A stretch of 64,000 bases of DNA from Sphingomonas sp. PAMC 26605 (lineage in GTDB: Bacteria > Pseudomonadota > Alphaproteobacteria > Sphingomonadales > Sphingomonadaceae): assembly GCF_000241485.1 (NCBI RefSeq), contig NZ_JH584241.1:2717661-2781660 (forward strand). The letters run 5' to 3'. Under the pieces are notes generated by a model. The model saw nothing but the letters and a program-made list of their open reading frames with translations, was not told the origin of the DNA and made no database searches. Position 1 is the first letter of the stretch, and each line of letters starts with the position of its first letter. Positions 11,658 to 59,096 of this stretch are shown here, piece after piece. The position numbers and the translations under genes are program-made.

Positions 11658-11754
11658 CCGTCACCCCGGCCTTGTGCCGGGGCCCACCGTGCCACGCGCA
11701 CACCCACGGCAATTCGCGCCGCGCGGTGGCCCCGGCACGAGGCCGGGGTGACGG
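11658..11754. repeat. Palindromic intergenic repeat (copy 2)
   Basis: CCGTCACCCCGGCCTTGTGC on the left mirrors GCACGAGGCCGGGGTGACGG on the right with almost complete complementarity. It lies between the small membrane gene and the end of mtgA, which are convergent, so it may also act as a bidirectional terminator. Confidence 0.7.
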
Positions 11755-12525: not shown

Positions 12526-13878
12526 TCAGCGCTGTCCACCACGTGCGGCAAGCACGGCTTCGGCGGCGGCGAGGCCGGTCGCATAGGCGCCGTGCGCGGT
12601 CGAGAAATCGTGGTGCGAGCACGCTTCGCCGGCGAAGAACAGGCGATCGTCGATTGGGGCGGCGAGCACTGCGCGCTGATCCGCGGCACCGATCCGGGCG
12701 TGCGAATAGCTGCCATGGATGTGCGGCGCGTGTCGCCAGCGGGTGCGGGCGAGCAGGGTCAGTTTCGCGCGCCAGTCGCTGCCGAGCAGGGCGACCAGTT
12801 CGCCGATCGCGAAGTCGGCGGCGGCGCGATCATCCTTGTCCTCGAGCAGTGCCGCGCAGTCGGCGCCGAGAAAGCCTTCGATCAGCGGCGTGCCGAACGG
12901 CGCGAGCCGGTAGCTCGCGGTGCAGGCGCTATGGGGATCGCCGATCAGATGGCCGTTACGCGGCAGATCGGCGTCGCTGACGTGGAGGAAGATCTTGTCG
13001 GCGAGCCCGAGCGGCAGGTCGGCGGCGGCGGCGTGTTTGGCGGGGAGCGGGGGATCGAAGCGGATCGTCTCGCGCGCTAGCGCGGTGGTCGGAACGGCGA
13101 CGATGACGTGGCGCGTTTCCAGCGTCCCACGGTCGGTCTCGACGCGGATGGTAGTGCCGCGATGGTCGATCCGCGTCACCACGGTCTGGAGCCGACTTGG
13201 CAGGCCGTGCCCATGGCGGGCGATCAGCGTGCCATAGCCTTGCTCGACCGCCCAATTATCGTCGGTCGCGGCATCCTCATACGCCGCCCAGTCGTGCAGC
13301 GAGACTTCGTCAAGCGGCGCGCCATTGGCGTAGCCCGAGATCGCATCGATCATTGGGCGCCACGGATCGTCTGTCGCGATGAAGTCGCCAAGCGGGCGAT
13401 CGGGGCCGCTCAGCGCTGCATGCGCGGCGGTGTCCCAGCGATCCCAGGCGGCGTGATAGGCGTCCTGCTCTTCGCGCGGAAAACCGAGGTCGCGCCACTG
13501 GTTGCCCCAATTGGCGGGGCTTCGATCGACGGTGAGGCCGTAGTGGCTCGCGAGCTTGGTCCAGGGGTTACGCTTCGCGGAATGAAGCCAACCGCAGCCG
13601 TAATCGACCGTTATGCTCCCCGGCGAAGGCCGGGGCCCAGTCGTGATGTCGCTATTTGGCTGGGGCAGCGGCTGACTATGACCACCTTCGCTACTGGGCC
13701 CCGGCCTTCGCCGGGGTGCGTCAGCAAAGGGGAGCTGAAGCGCCACGCTATGCGCTCGGCCACCGATCCGGTCGCCCGCTTCGACCAGAAGAATATCGAG
13801 CCCGGCATCGTGCAACACCCGCCCCGCGGCGATGCCAGCGGCGCCGGCACCGACGATGATCGCATCGGCGCCGGCCAT
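12526..13878 (-). CDS. FAD-dependent amine oxidase-family oxidoreductase
   Basis: A 450-aa flavoprotein. The N-terminal dinucleotide-binding motif AIIVGAGAAGIAAGRVL is followed by the acidic strand end and GG motif (LLVEAGDRIGGRAHS). The C-terminal FAD block ends FFAGEACSHHDFSTAHGAYATG. The family oxidises amines or polyamines, but the substrate here is unknown. Residues 54-87 are encoded by a palindromic repeat inserted in frame between LQLPFA and VDYGCGWLHS, where related enzymes have only a short connection. The ATG at 13878 lies 5 bases after the rpoH stop, so it is probably co-transcribed with rpoH. Confidence 0.88.
   Translation of the reverse strand: MAGADAIIVGAGAAGIAAGRVLHDAGLDILLVEAGDRIGGRAHSVALQLPFADAPRRRPGPSSEGGHSQPLPQPNSDITTGPRPSPGSITVDYGCGWLHSAKRNPWTKLASHYGLTVDRSPANWGNQWRDLGFPREEQDAYHAAWDRWDTAAHAALSGPDRPLGDFIATDDPWRPMIDAISGYANGAPLDEVSLHDWAAYEDAATDDNWAVEQGYGTLIARHGHGLPSRLQTVVTRIDHRGTTIRVETDRGTLETRHVIVAVPTTALARETIRFDPPLPAKHAAAADLPLGLADKIFLHVSDADLPRNGHLIGDPHSACTASYRLAPFGTPLIEGFLGADCAALLEDKDDRAAADFAIGELVALLGSDWRAKLTLLARTRWRHAPHIHGSYSHARIGAADQRAVLAAPIDDRLFFAGEACSHHDFSTAHGAYATGLAAAEAVLAARGGQR
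13618..13716. repeat. Palindromic repeat inserted inside the amine oxidase gene (copy 3)
   Basis: Two perfect complementary 23-base arms (13618-13640 and 13694-13716) flank a 53-base centre. Total length is 99 bases, exactly 33 codons, with no stop in the frame used. The arms are identical in sequence to those at 33482-33504 and 33557-33579. Confidence 0.9.
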
Positions 13879-26572: not shown

Positions 26573-26615
26573 GGGGTGGCTATAGTCGCCTCGTGCCGGC
26601 TTCGTCACCTTTTTC

Positions 26616-26725
26616 GCCCCTCCCCTTTAGGGGAGGGGATGGGGGTGGGGGAGGTCTCACCGAGACTGCCTGCGCACGGTTCGCGGCACGGCCCCACCCC
26701 AACCCCTCCCCTGAAGGGGAGGGGC
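26616..26725. repeat. Palindromic intergenic repeat, G/C-tract type (copy 4)
   Basis: The left end GCCCCTCCCCTTTAGGGGAG forms its own hairpin. The whole unit is mirrored by CCCCACCCCAACCCCTCCCC and a terminal hairpin TCCCCTGAAGGGGA. Related to the repeat at 4-98. It lies between sufE and the end of the psp operon. Confidence 0.75.
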
Positions 26726-26732
26726 TAGATAG

Positions 26733-31914: not shown

Positions 31915-32529
31915 TCACTCCTGCGGCGGGACCGGCGGCTCGTCCTGCGTGCTGAAACCGTGCTTCATCAGCATCGGCACGTTGGCGAAGGCGAAAATCA
32001 GCGTCAGCGGGATCACGCCCCACAGCTTGAAGCCGAGCCAGAAGGCATAGCTGAATTCGTGCCGGACGACCTCGTTGAGCACCGCGAGGAAGGCGAAGAA
32101 TACCGCCCAGTTGATCGTCAGCTTGCGCCAGCCGGTCTCGTTGAGGCCGGGATAGGCCGCTTCGAGGAACAGGCTGAGCAGCGGCCGGCCGGTGACGAGG
32201 CCGAACACCAGGATCGCCGACAGCATCGCATAGATCACCGTCGGCTTGATCTGGATGAATTCCTTGTTGTGGAAATAGAGCGTCAGCCCGCCGAACACGA
32301 GCACCAGCGTCCCGGTCAGCCACAGCATCGGCGAGATCCGGCCCGTGCGGACCAGCGCGTAGATCATCGCCGCGATGCTCGCGATCATGAACGCGGCCGT
32401 CCCCGCTATCACTTTGACTATGTCGAGACCGGGCGTGAGGAAATTGACAAGGAAGAAGACCACGATCGGCCCGATGTCGATCGCCAGGCGCTGGCCCGCG
32501 CCGAGCGGCTGCTTGGTGGTGGAGGTCAT
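31915..32529 (-). CDS. ispZ: Inner membrane-spanning protein YciB/IspZ (septation protein A family)
   Basis: A 204-aa protein with five or six transmembrane helices. The family signature includes IDIGPIVVFFLVNF, RDxxxKPT-like FIQIKPTVIYAML, and NETGWRKLTINWAVFFAFLAVLNE. The family is linked to septation and envelope maintenance, but its biochemistry is unsettled. The start overlaps the ftsY stop by 4 bases (ATGA). Confidence 0.92.
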   Translation of the reverse strand: MTSTTKQPLGAGQRLAIDIGPIVVFFLVNFLTPGLDIVKVIAGTAAFMIASIAAMIYALVRTGRISPMLWLTGTLVLVFGGLTLYFHNKEFIQIKPTVIYAMLSAILVFGLVTGRPLLSLFLEAAYPGLNETGWRKLTINWAVFFAFLAVLNEVVRHEFSYAFWLGFKLWGVIPLTLIFAFANVPMLMKHGFSTQDEPPVPPQE

Positions 32530-33455
32530 TTGCGGACCCCTTCCACGCCGGCGATGATCCGTGCAACCTCGTTTGCGTCGAACGGGCGCAGATCGCCCAT
32601 CCCCTCGCCGACGCCGATCGCGTGGATCGGCAGGCCGTATTGCTCGGCCGCCGCGACGAGCACGCCGCCGCGCGCGGTGCCGTCGAGCTTGGTCATGACG
32701 AGGCCGGTGACGCCGGCGTCCTTCTTGAACACCTCGATCTGGCTGAGCGCGTTCTGGCCCGTCGTCGCGTCGAGCACGAGCAGGACGTCGTGCGGCGAAT
32801 CGACGTTGAGCCGGCCGAGCACGCGGCGGATCTTCGACAGTTCGTCCATCAGCTCGCGCTTGTTCTGGAGGCGGCCGGCGGTGTCGACGATCAGCACGTC
32901 GATCCCGGTCGCGGTCGCCTGCTTGACCGCTTCGTAGACGATCCCCGCGGCGTCGCCGCCTTCCTTGCCGCTGATGATCGGAACGCCGGCGCGCTCGGCC
33001 CAGGTCGCGAGCTGGCCGATCGCAGCGGCACGGAACGTGTCGCCCGCCGCCAGCATCACGCCGTAATCCTGCTCCTTCAGCAGATGCGCGAGCTTGGCGA
33101 TCGTCGTCGTCTTGCCCGAGCCGTTGACACCGATCACCAGGATGACGTGCGGGCGCGGGAAGCCGGTGATCTCGAGCGGCTTGGCGACGGTATCGAGCAC
33201 CTTCTCGATCTCCTCGGCGACGACCAGGCGGATGCCGAGATCCTCCATGTCGCGTTCGAACACCCCGGTCGAGAGGCGATGACGGATCCGCGCGGCGGTC
33301 TGCGGGCCGAGGTCGGAGGCGATCAGCGCCTCCTCGATTTCGTCGAGCGTCGCCTGGTCGAGCGGACCGGTGCCGAGCCCGGCGAGATTGCCGAGCAGCC
33401 GGTCGGAGGTGCGCTTGAACCCGCCAAGGAGTTTTTCGTGCCAGGTGGGGGTCAT
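32526..33455 (-). CDS. ftsY: Signal recognition particle receptor FtsY
   Basis: A 309-aa SRP receptor GTPase that docks Ffh-ribosome complexes at the membrane. The NG domain is intact: N-domain helices, then GVNGSGKTTTIAKLA, the insertion-box region GDTFRAAAIGQL, VDTAGRLQNK, and TKLDGTARGG. The long acidic A domain of enterobacterial FtsY is absent, which is usual in alphaproteobacteria. Both ends overlap neighbours by 4 bases (mtaB upstream, ispZ downstream). Confidence 0.96.
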   Translation of the reverse strand: MTPTWHEKLLGGFKRTSDRLLGNLAGLGTGPLDQATLDEIEEALIASDLGPQTAARIRHRLSTGVFERDMEDLGIRLVVAEEIEKVLDTVAKPLEITGFPRPHVILVIGVNGSGKTTTIAKLAHLLKEQDYGVMLAAGDTFRAAAIGQLATWAERAGVPIISGKEGGDAAGIVYEAVKQATATGIDVLIVDTAGRLQNKRELMDELSKIRRVLGRLNVDSPHDVLLVLDATTGQNALSQIEVFKKDAGVTGLVMTKLDGTARGGVLVAAAEQYGLPIHAIGVGEGMGDLRPFDANEVARIIAGVEGVRK

Positions 33456-34813
33456 GCGGGGATTCCGGTTGATTGATGCTTCCCCGGCGAAGGCCGGGGC
33501 CCAGGAGAAACGGCGGTAGTGGGCGAGTGCTGCGCGTCGCTAGGAACGTCCCGCGACTGGGCCCCGGCCTTCGCCGGGGGGGCAGCGAGGGGAATGGCGC
33601 GGAGCGTCCTGCCGTCGGTGTCGACGATGCGGAGTTTTTGCACCGTCCCGACGGCTTGCGGATCGAAGCGGATTTCGGCGAAATTTCCAGAGTGCCCGCG
33701 GTCACCCGGCCGTTCGACCAGCACGTCCTGCGTTGTGCCGACCAGCCCGCCGAGCCACGCTGCCTTGCGCCGCGCGCCAGCCACGCGCAGCAGCGCCGCG
33801 CGCGCCTTGCGGACCGGTACGGGCACTGCCGGCATCCGCGCGGCGGGCGTGCCGTCGCGCTCCGAATAGGGGAAGATATGCGCGTGGACCACGTCGCAAT
33901 CGTCGATCAGCGCGAGCGTGTCGGCGAACATCGCGTCATCCTCGGTCGGGAAGCCCGCGATCAGATCGGCGCCGATCGCAATCTCCGCGCGGGCCGCCTT
34001 GAGCCGCTCGACCAAAGCGACGCTTTCACCACGCGAATGGCGGCGCTTCATGCGCTTGAGGATCAGGTCGTTGCCTGCCTGCAGCGACAGATGGACGTGC
34101 GGCATCACCCGCGGCTCCTGCGTCAGCAGCGCGAACAGGCGATCGTCGATCTCGATCCCGTCGAGTGACGACAGCCGCAGCCGCTCGAGCGCCGGCACAT
34201 GCCGGAGGATCCGCTCGACCAGCAGCCCAAGGCTCGGCGCGCCGGGCAGATCGGGACCGTAGCTGGTGAGATCGACCCCGGTCAGCACGATCTCGCGGTG
34301 GCCGGCATCGACGAGACCCGCGATCCGCTCGATCACCGCGCCCGCGGGCACCGAGCGGCTGTTGCCGCGGCCGTACGGGATCACGCAGAAGGTGCAGCGA
34401 TGGTCGCAGCCATTCTGTACCTCGACGAACGCGCGGGCGTGCGCGGCGAAGGCTGGGGCCAAGTGCGGCGCGGTGTCGCGAACGCGCAGTATGTCGCCGA
34501 CGATGACGGGGTCGGACGCTTCCCAGGCGTGCGACGTCAGTTTCTCGGCATTGCCGAGCACGCGGTCGACCTCGGGCATCGCGGCGAAGCTCGCCGGGTC
34601 GATCTGCGCCGCGCACCCGGTCACCACCAGTTGCGCCGAGGGCCGCTCGGCGCGCGCGCGGCGGATCGCCTTGCGCGTCTCGGCGACGGCGCCGTTGGTG
34701 ACCGCGCAGCTGTTGACGACGACCAGGTCGCGCCCGCCGACGAGCGCGCGGATCGCCTCGCTTTCGGCGATGTTGAGGCGGCAGCCGAGGGAGATGATCT
34801 GTGGGACGGGCAT
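33452..34813 (-). CDS. mtaB: tRNA t6A37 methylthiotransferase MtaB
   Basis: A 453-aa radical-SAM enzyme that converts t6A37 to ms2t6A in tRNA. The N-terminal UPF0004 domain has cluster Cys in LGCRLNIAES, VNSCAVTN and VTGCAAQIDP. The radical-SAM motif is CDHRCTFC. The conserved region ends near TLRAIPLAA (about 408). The last ~40 residues come from a palindromic repeat (33482-33579, residues about 411-444), giving a Pro/Gly/Ser-rich tail that replaces the usual end. It overlaps ftsY by 4 bases. Confidence 0.93.
   Translation of the reverse strand: MPVPQIISLGCRLNIAESEAIRALVGGRDLVVVNSCAVTNGAVAETRKAIRRARAERPSAQLVVTGCAAQIDPASFAAMPEVDRVLGNAEKLTSHAWEASDPVIVGDILRVRDTAPHLAPAFAAHARAFVEVQNGCDHRCTFCVIPYGRGNSRSVPAGAVIERIAGLVDAGHREIVLTGVDLTSYGPDLPGAPSLGLLVERILRHVPALERLRLSSLDGIEIDDRLFALLTQEPRVMPHVHLSLQAGNDLILKRMKRRHSRGESVALVERLKAARAEIAIGADLIAGFPTEDDAMFADTLALIDDCDVVHAHIFPYSERDGTPAARMPAVPVPVRKARAALLRVAGARRKAAWLGGLVGTTQDVLVERPGDRGHSGNFAEIRFDPQAVGTVQKLRIVDTDGRTLRAIPLAAPPAKAGAQSRDVPSDAQHSPTTAVSPGPRPSPGKHQSTGIPA
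33482..33579. repeat. Palindromic repeat forming the 3' end of mtaB (copy 5)
   Basis: Perfect complementary 23-base arms at 33482-33504 and 33557-33579, identical to the arms of the repeat at 13618-13716, with a different 52-base centre. It lies within the mtaB reading frame, which continues through it and stops 30 bases beyond. Confidence 0.9.
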
Positions 34814-34894: not shown

Positions 34895-34986
34895 CGTCGC
34901 CCCGGCGAAGGCCGGGGCCGCTGGGTTGGACGCGGAGCGGTCGCTGCGCGCTCGACCTAGCGGCCCCGGCCTGCGCCGGGGCGACG
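34895..34986. repeat. Palindromic intergenic repeat (copy 6)
   Basis: CGTCGCCCCGGCGAAGGCCG on the left is mirrored by CGGCCTGCGCCGGGGCGACG on the right. It shares the CCCCGGCGAAGGCCGGGG core with copies 3 and 5. It lies between the mtaB start and the end of the GGDEF-EAL gene, both leftward. Confidence 0.8.
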
Positions 34987-49444: not shown

Positions 49445-49468
49445 GGTCAGGCGTTCGCCTTCCCATCG

Positions 49469-49593
49469 GTCATTCCCGCGTAGGCGGGGATGCCTCCTTA
49501 CTGTCATCCCCGCGGAGGCGGGGATCCATTGGCAGGGACGCGCTTAATTTGCGAGACCTGCCAGTATGGATTCCCGCCTTCGCGGGAATGACG
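49469..49593. repeat. Compound palindromic intergenic repeat (copy 8)
   Basis: Three hairpin units are CATTCCCGC...GCGGGGATG, TCATCCCCGC...GCGGGGAT and ATTCCCGCCTTCGCGGGAAT. The outer ends GTCATTCCCGCG and CGCGGGAATGAC are mutually complementary. It lies between the peptidase and mgtC-family genes. Confidence 0.75.
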
Positions 49594-49659
49594 GAGGAGG
49601 GGGCAACGATACGAGTCTACCCCTAGTCCCCACCGCCCCTCTCCCATAAGACCCGCCGC

Positions 49660-59007: not shown

Positions 59008-59096
59008 GTCGCCCCGGCGAAGGCCGGAGCCTGTCGAAGCCGGCGCGACCTAGCGTCCGCGCGGTCGCTGACCGGCCCGGCCTCCACCGGGGCGAC
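59008..59096. repeat. Palindromic intergenic repeat (copy 9)
   Basis: GTCGCCCCGGCGAAGGCCGG on the left is mirrored by CCGGCCTCCACCGGGGCGAC on the right. It carries the same core as copies 3, 5 and 6, with a diverged right arm. It lies between the small exported protein gene and uvrC. Confidence 0.7.

Follow-up and report, generated by a model that had tools for sequence, protein, structure and literature searches.

A palindromic repeat is read in frame within the flavin amine oxidase gene at positions 12526-13878 of the window (the whole 64,000-nt stretch of DNA analysed here), at a loop which different repeat families appear to have entered more than once. The explanation that best covers the whole, and which we consider very probably correct, is that palindromes spread through the genome, are tolerated where they fall in protein loops, decay there, and arrive recurrently at one loop.

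The oxidase (minus strand; 450 residues; Pfam PF01593, E 3e-42) carries a type 2 palindromic element of 99 nt at 13618-13716, read on the minus strand as oxidase residues 55-87. Inverted-repeat comparison places the first arm, CCCCGGCGAAGGCCGGGGCCCAG, at 13618-13640 and the second, its exact reverse complement, at 13694-13716; the stem continues imperfectly out to 13615-13719, and the ends of the element are ATGCT and ACGCA. The predicted fold has an energy of -71.7 kcal/mol and a z score of -6.9 (6.9 standard deviations better than its own shuffles). An earlier reading made from the sequence only had proposed a 99-nt palindrome with perfect 23-nt arms lying without a stop in an amine oxidase frame; the exact length and the identical inverted arms are seen, the minus-strand reading of 12526-13878 is open throughout, and the in-frame palindromic repeat within the oxidase is confirmed. 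Two details of that reading need correction, as the element starts at codon 55, and so comes after residue 54 instead of 53, and adds 33 residues where about 34 had been given. Its point that the length is a multiple of three is accurate but carries no weight as an argument; we regard it as incidental because other in-gene copies are 74, 78, 84, 97 and 98 nt long.

LSD2 and a polyamine oxidase are among the top Foldseek matches to the fold of the oxidase, and the nearest named carriers of the gene are two S. glacialis strains (best-segment identity 85 and 88%). For the gene without its insert, dN/dS comes to 0.116 in comparison with G031 and 0.119 with G139; for the insert itself it is 0.28, a value calculated from 9 changes. 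On these codon comparisons the amine oxidase is under purifying selection, and the pseudogene that the sequence-only reading had allowed for is not what the 0.12 against each of the two nearest relatives resembles. In an AlphaFold model built with 32 sequences (mean pLDDT 83), residues 57-83 score below 50 and sit between strands 44-48 and 88-92, such that the insert is predicted to be a disordered loop between two strands, in keeping with the placement expected for it.

The repeat recurs throughout the genome. Exact 23-nt arms occur 26 times in 4.80 Mb (reversed-sequence control, 0), and an 18-nt core with up to two mismatches gives 140 matches, 71 forward and 69 reverse (reversed-pattern control, 0). 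Element positions derive from the first 100 of the 140 core arms together with a second listing, with their surroundings then examined; at least 62 complete inverted pairs were found, most of them intergenic, a count from which elements with both arms off the core may be absent. Among the matches listed, every copy is on contig 1, the contig of the window; the 22 other contigs of the assembly (G000), approximately 0.84 Mb, hold none of the copies listed. Across the genus, exact arms are present in 109 of 151 genomes. A search with the arm sequence had been proposed; other copies of the repeat do lie in frame in known genes of this genome.

Type 1, with at least 41 pairs as labelled, is 73-91 nt long with tags outside; its ends are CGTCG in 71 of 82 cases, CGTCA in 5, TGTCG in 2 and something other in 4. 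By eye, the type 1 arm reads GCCCCGGC-GNAG-GCCGGGGC, with a stem of 8 bp, mostly starting with GC, a loop of 4 nt and a CCGCT-like tail. Type 2 has at least 21 copies as labelled, of 97-99 nt plus one of 106 nt. CGCTT is its commonest end (12 of 42), and the CGTCG at 2 of 42 ends comes in both instances from one misassigned copy (1492581), which was assigned to type 2 by length yet bears a type 1 tag. GTAG was absent from the 5 bases flanking the core on the outside at all 124 element ends. As judged with a codon-score gene caller, most type 1 copies have co-directional genes on either side (25 of 41), and for type 2 the most frequent class is between convergent genes (10 of 21). The window holds a CGTCG-tagged type 1 element at 34895-34986, between mtaB and the next gene, and a degenerate one at 59012-59092, called intergenic.

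Other arrangements were noted in passing. Locus L124 (G000 contig 1, 454694-455041) holds three type 1 elements in tandem, 135 nt from start to start. In the window, an inverted repeat at 11658-11754, with arms CCGTCACCCCGGCCTTGTGCCGGGGCC set 43 nt apart, lies between two convergent called genes and is similar to a CGTC-tagged family described below as family C; another, at 49457-49604 between two called genes, has arms GTCATTCCCGC...GCGGGAATGAC that are 76% complementary and resembles a CGTC-1 type pair. An inverted repeat of another kind, GCCCCTCCCCTTTAGGGGAGGGG, is found outside called genes at 26609-26732.

At least nine of the at least 62 elements lie inside genes, of which one is close to the C-terminal end of MtaB and the other eight are within coding frames. 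The in-frame hosts are the amine oxidase, QueG, ThiL, a nitrite/sulfite reductase, threonylcarbamoyl-AMP synthase, IspDF, BirA and a membrane protein, and the reading frame through the element differs between them; the genes for IspDF, BirA and threonylcarbamoyl-AMP synthase are usually regarded as essential. In-gene copies are depleted (9 of 62 vs approximately 42 expected at a coding share of 0.675, the gene caller's figure for the window; P ~1e-17), as expected if most insertions are lost. The gene caller, a simple codon-score method trained on the window, missed the amine oxidase, whose copy was added by hand; a stricter rescan of the unflagged copies returned no frame, the oxidase included, and a looser one, set to show the oxidase, gave it and one implausible frame. 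Because the caller and the stricter rescan miss the oxidase, nine is a lower bound; flagged copies 759535 and 2017652, which lie at a presumed 5′ frame edge, are left out of it. Six of the nine hosts reach the NCBIfam cut-off, namely QueG, ThiL, TsaC/Sua5 (threonylcarbamoyladenylate synthase), MtaB, IspDF and BirA. The nitrite/sulfite reductase is named through Pfam NIR_SIR, its NCBIfam matches (NirA and others) being under the cut-off, and the membrane protein with copy 1940098, for which neither Pfam nor NCBIfam gave a match, is a weaker case.

Relatives lacking the element were compared for eight of the nine in-gene copies (all but the membrane protein). QueG, ThiL, NirA, TsaC, IspD and BirA, each aligned with 11 other genomes (the TsaC alignment has 12 rows, two of them from G085), show the elements as insertions, with empty sites in relatives. 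The elements in QueG and NirA are found in this genome alone of the 12 compared; the BirA and IspD inserts are common to this genome, G031 and G139, and the TsaC insert to this genome and G139, with a similar one in G061. Copies elsewhere in this genome provide a background for spacer identity (type 2, median 0.60 and 95th percentile 0.67; type 1, median 0.56 and 95th percentile 0.71). Because spacer identity exceeds this background for the oxidase (0.85), BirA (0.89 and 0.82), IspD (0.82 twice) and MtaB with G139 (0.81), common descent of these inserts is supported by the alignments. Values near background are obtained for MtaB with G031 (0.67) and for TsaC with G139 (0.69) and G061 (0.65); that for ThiL with G053 is 0.52. 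In G053, a family C pair lies inside ispD (contig 30, 17541-17626), where this genome bears type 1. Outside its own gene, the inserted piece of IspD gives a single weak match within the genome (39% over 63 residues, E 9.9e-4). It falls between two matched blocks of the PDB relative 4ys8, before VLVHDAARP, and the BirA insert likewise between two matched blocks of 9drn, before the KWPND motif; from these alignments both sites are taken as loops.

The copy near the C-terminus of MtaB is the second that the sequence-only reading had located, and it too was found as described: a type 2 element of 98 nt (33482-33579, minus strand), in frame within the last codons of mtaB (33452-34813, minus strand; NCBIfam TIGR01579, above cut-off). 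It is followed by nine codons and a stop that overlaps the start of the gene directly downstream (32526-33455, minus strand), which we take to be ftsY. Element and ATGA overlap are kept in this genome, G031 and G139. MtaB is without the element in G053, G085, G061 and G114 and has a different, longer tail in G098; in the comparison of C-terminal ends, the motif was not found for G043.

Across Sphingomonas, the oxidase search gave a match in 118 of 151 genomes, of which 86 loci (E 9.6e-69 or better) were used and weaker ones left out; 84 of these were parsed (L090 and L108 failed), together with 36 named loci, all but L266. The GGRA-to-GCGW segment of the 84 loci is 18 residues or shorter in 56, 19-24 in 4 and at least 25 in 24, the short majority bearing out the proposal that, set beside its orthologues, this oxidase carries an insertion. 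Of the 24 loops of at least 25 residues, 14 contain an inverted repeat of 10 nt or longer. The loop of L110 and L111, read as 37 residues, is a parsing artefact, the true length being 16.

Family A, that of the element described above, occupies the oxidase loop in this genome and G031. Family B (CCCCCGCGAAGGCGGGGG...) occupies it in a single clade of roughly twelve rows, including G061, G058, G124, G018, G092 and G034, family C (...GGACTTGTTCC...) in G098, and family D (CGTCATCCCAGC...) in G147. Each is a repeat in its own carriers: family B arms number 34-59 in eight carriers vs 1 in this genome, family C arms 245 in G098 and 20 here, and family D arms 122 in G147 and 14 here, with a reversed control of 0 in every case. 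Sequence comparison thus shows the same oxidase loop to have been hit by at least four repeat families. The sister rows L033 and L034 carry families C and D, and on a tree computed quickly from the sequence outside the loop, at least 15 changes are needed to explain nine loop labels, the L110/L111 artefact accounting for one of them; this tree holds 100 of the 119 parsed rows, those bearing stops, shorter than 380 residues or identical outside the loop having been dropped. Two named genomes have extended loops, of 100 residues with a C-like repeat in S. liriopis (L263) and of 80 residues in S. beigongshangi (L258). The loop of L263 apparently comprises a series of Ala-Pro repeats alongside two palindromic elements that differ from each other. 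It had been anticipated that orthologues with an equally long, repeat-free segment would speak against insertion; such loops do exist, but in a minority (L036, 64 residues; L252, 52 residues; L044, L045 and L274, 32-34 residues), most loops being short. These long loops, in which no repeat was recognised, may be decayed elements or something else.

The relatives also inform on the fate of an element once inserted. G031 has the whole element in its oxidase, with a loop identical to that of L244 (S. glacialis CGMCC 1.8957). In G139, whose loop is identical to that of L243 (S. glacialis E6.1), 81 nt are missing within the element, and a mutated arm remnant and both flanks are kept; the alignment shows that most of the element has been lost in frame. 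In the family B clade (14 rows) the loop insert is exactly 33 residues in all. With arm pairing defined on L042, whose own zero is by construction, 12 of the 14 rows keep the palindrome, with breaks in 0-4 of the 24 arm pairs and two-sided changes in none. In the remaining rows, L054 and L058, 8 and 10 of the 24 pairs are broken and 3 and 4 are changed on both sides to another standard pair, which we take as chance in diverged sequence. Upkeep of the palindrome by compensatory change was considered and rejected, there being no two-sided change in the 12 rows and a broken palindrome in L054 and L058. Given the family B decay, the in-frame loss in G139 and the dN/dS of the oxidase, frame and length are, on this comparative evidence, more tightly kept than the palindrome is. 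The oxidase gene of G024 (L039), a carrier of family B, contains a TAA stop in frame.

The elements are open in most frames (4.9 of six for type 1 and 4.1 for type 2). Shuffles of the whole element were as open in 80 of 200 cases for type 1 and 43 of 200 for type 2, and shuffles of the spacer only in 9 of 200 and 23 of 200, respectively; we attribute this openness to base composition, type 1 showing a slight excess at most. The possibility of coding selection on the element was rejected, since its openness lies within that of the whole-element shuffles and several frames are used. Because stop-freeness is no higher than in shuffles, and arms decay with length and frame kept, the evidence points to passive tolerance of the in-gene elements and not to a coding function.

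The insertions themselves are not clean. At the QueG site 153 nt were gained for a 98-nt element, at the NirA site the net gain is 57 nt for a 78-nt element, and at the ThiL site it is 78 or 102 nt, depending on the relative; these net changes are multiples of three, and the junctions are untidy. Target duplication was not recognised in DNA alignments of the three sites with two relatives each. Given the unclean insertions and the unrecognised target duplication, simple transposition is at most a candidate mechanism. A profile search for the Y1 transposase (PF01797) gave 0 matches in this genome and matches in 16 of 151 genus genomes. Exact-arm counts in those 16 range from 0 to 68, yet G022, which is outside them, has 158. 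A Y1 transposase was rejected as the mover, being without a match here and rare in the genus.

In the mechanism that we propose, short GC-rich, non-autonomous REP-like palindromes (inverted hairpin pairs of 73-106 nt) would be mobile and spread through Sphingomonas chromosomes, mostly settling between genes, with few inside them. Such an element would be stop-free in most frames through its base composition. Where landing alters the net length by a multiple of three and the site is a turn joining elements of secondary structure, the palindrome would be translated as part of its host and give a protein that still works, with an added disordered loop, and the insertion would presumably be neutral. 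Afterwards the palindrome would decay or be deleted in frame, length and frame being kept more strictly. Few protein sites are likely to tolerate insertion, and for that reason different repeat families would hit the same loop independently.

It is unlikely that the recurrent loop reflects a target preference of the mobilising machinery, that is, a DNA landing site, more than protein tolerance. A preference of this kind would account for at least four different families in one oxidase loop, for family C at the same IspD site in G053, and for the perhaps independent same-site insertions in ThiL (G053, 0.52) and TsaC (G061, 0.65), whose spacers are at about background. However, the families differ in sequence, the inserts replace varying amounts of flank, the oxidase insert is a predicted loop, and those of BirA and IspD lie between two aligned blocks of solved relatives. 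We give very little credence to the idea that the in-gene hairpin is kept for a role in RNA or DNA (transcript pausing or attenuation), as proposed for intergenic REPs. The very stable predicted fold (-71.7 kcal/mol, z -6.9) and arms that are perfect here and near-perfect in several family B carriers are what it would predict, but in family B two-sided changes are absent from the 12 rows in which the palindrome persists, two other rows have lost it with length and frame retained, and G139 does without most of the element.

It is highly improbable that the elements are selected as coding modules from which enzymes gain a new segment of use to them. Although the BirA, IspDF and MtaB elements are retained across three relatives, frames vary by gene, open frames do not exceed those of whole-element shuffles, the insert is predicted to be disordered, and G139 has lost it in frame. 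It is scarcely credible that the oxidase is inactivated or the repeat an assembly error: the stop in the gene of the family B relative G024 has no counterpart here, the dN/dS of 0.12 argues against inactivation, and the same element is present in a separately sequenced relative (L028; L244, S. glacialis CGMCC 1.8957) that is 88% identical over its full length. Spreading palindromes tolerated in loops remain the reading that we prefer. The oxidase hairpin and the loops of IspD, ThiL and TsaC may be standing landing sites at which different palindromic families arrive, decay and give way to others, with REP turnover, ahead of substitution or slippage, as the chief cause of changing loop length in these proteins, a possibility that we consider rather doubtful.

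With the matched empty sites as evidence, a repeat termed 'extragenic' is seen to have joined reading frames more than once, also in genes generally considered essential, and caution is warranted in the annotation and structure prediction of sphingomonad proteins. The oxidase loop offers a natural series (empty, occupied by four families, decayed, deleted) for the absorption of foreign segments by a protein.

S. alaskensis and E. litoralis, which figure in previous work on such repeats, are sphingomonads. In the excerpted text of Di Nocera, De Gregorio and Rocco (2013; PMC3733652), CGTC REPs are described chiefly from alphaproteobacteria, with S. wittichii, S. chlorophenolicum and S. alaskensis among the hosts, and in-frame intragenic REPs are given for several species, S. 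alaskensis and E. litoralis among them. The same excerpts suggest that REP insertions in protein loops are possibly neutral, and note different REPs at approximately the same gene site only for recB of two Xanthomonas species. Type 1 resembles these repeats, as excerpted, in the CGTC at most of its ends, for which PMC3733652 admits variants such as TGTC, in a stem of 8 bp and a loop of 4 nt (8-9 bp and 4-5 nt in PMC3733652), and in its 41 pairs with tags outside, CGTC REPs being predominantly HH dimers. Mostly intergenic placement with co-directional or convergent neighbours, in-frame intragenic copies and the want of a dedicated transposase (here, 0 PF01797 matches in the genome) are further likenesses within that text. 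In contrast to CGTC REPs as described in PMC3733652, type 1 is without the near-invariable A/T pairs at stem positions 1-2 and the CCA tail, and type 2, to which the 13618-13716 copy belongs, is without a terminal CGTC, its ends most often being CGCTT.

RAYT-associated GTAG REPs are likewise short, paired palindromic repeats and largely extragenic, but GTAG is at 0 of 124 ends here and a Y1 transposase match is absent from this genome. The likeness to Rickettsia palindromic elements drawn by the sequence-only reading is real as a way of working. In the passages of the Rickettsia literature used here, palindromes of approximately 100-150 bp are found both in frame within unrelated genes and in intergenic DNA (PMC10969869, PMC2229807), as are those of this genome, the comparison being by description; an RPE-bearing guanylate kinase, the one tested case in those passages, still works (PMC2229807). 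The genus differs, and the frame varies by gene here, whereas the review describes a conserved peptide, so far as its excerpted text goes (PMC10969869/PMC2229807). That the element family is a different one is correct in part, as RPE-4 and RPE-6 are equated with CGTC REP families in the excerpts of PMC3733652, to which superfamily type 1 conforms in tag, stem and loop length and dimer form, the 13618-13716 copy being of the untagged type 2. No description of at least four families repeatedly invading one loop was found for sphingomonads in searches of open-licence papers. The phenomenon of in-frame REPs is already known; what is new here is a set of them with matched empty sites, together with the recurrent invasion of a single loop.
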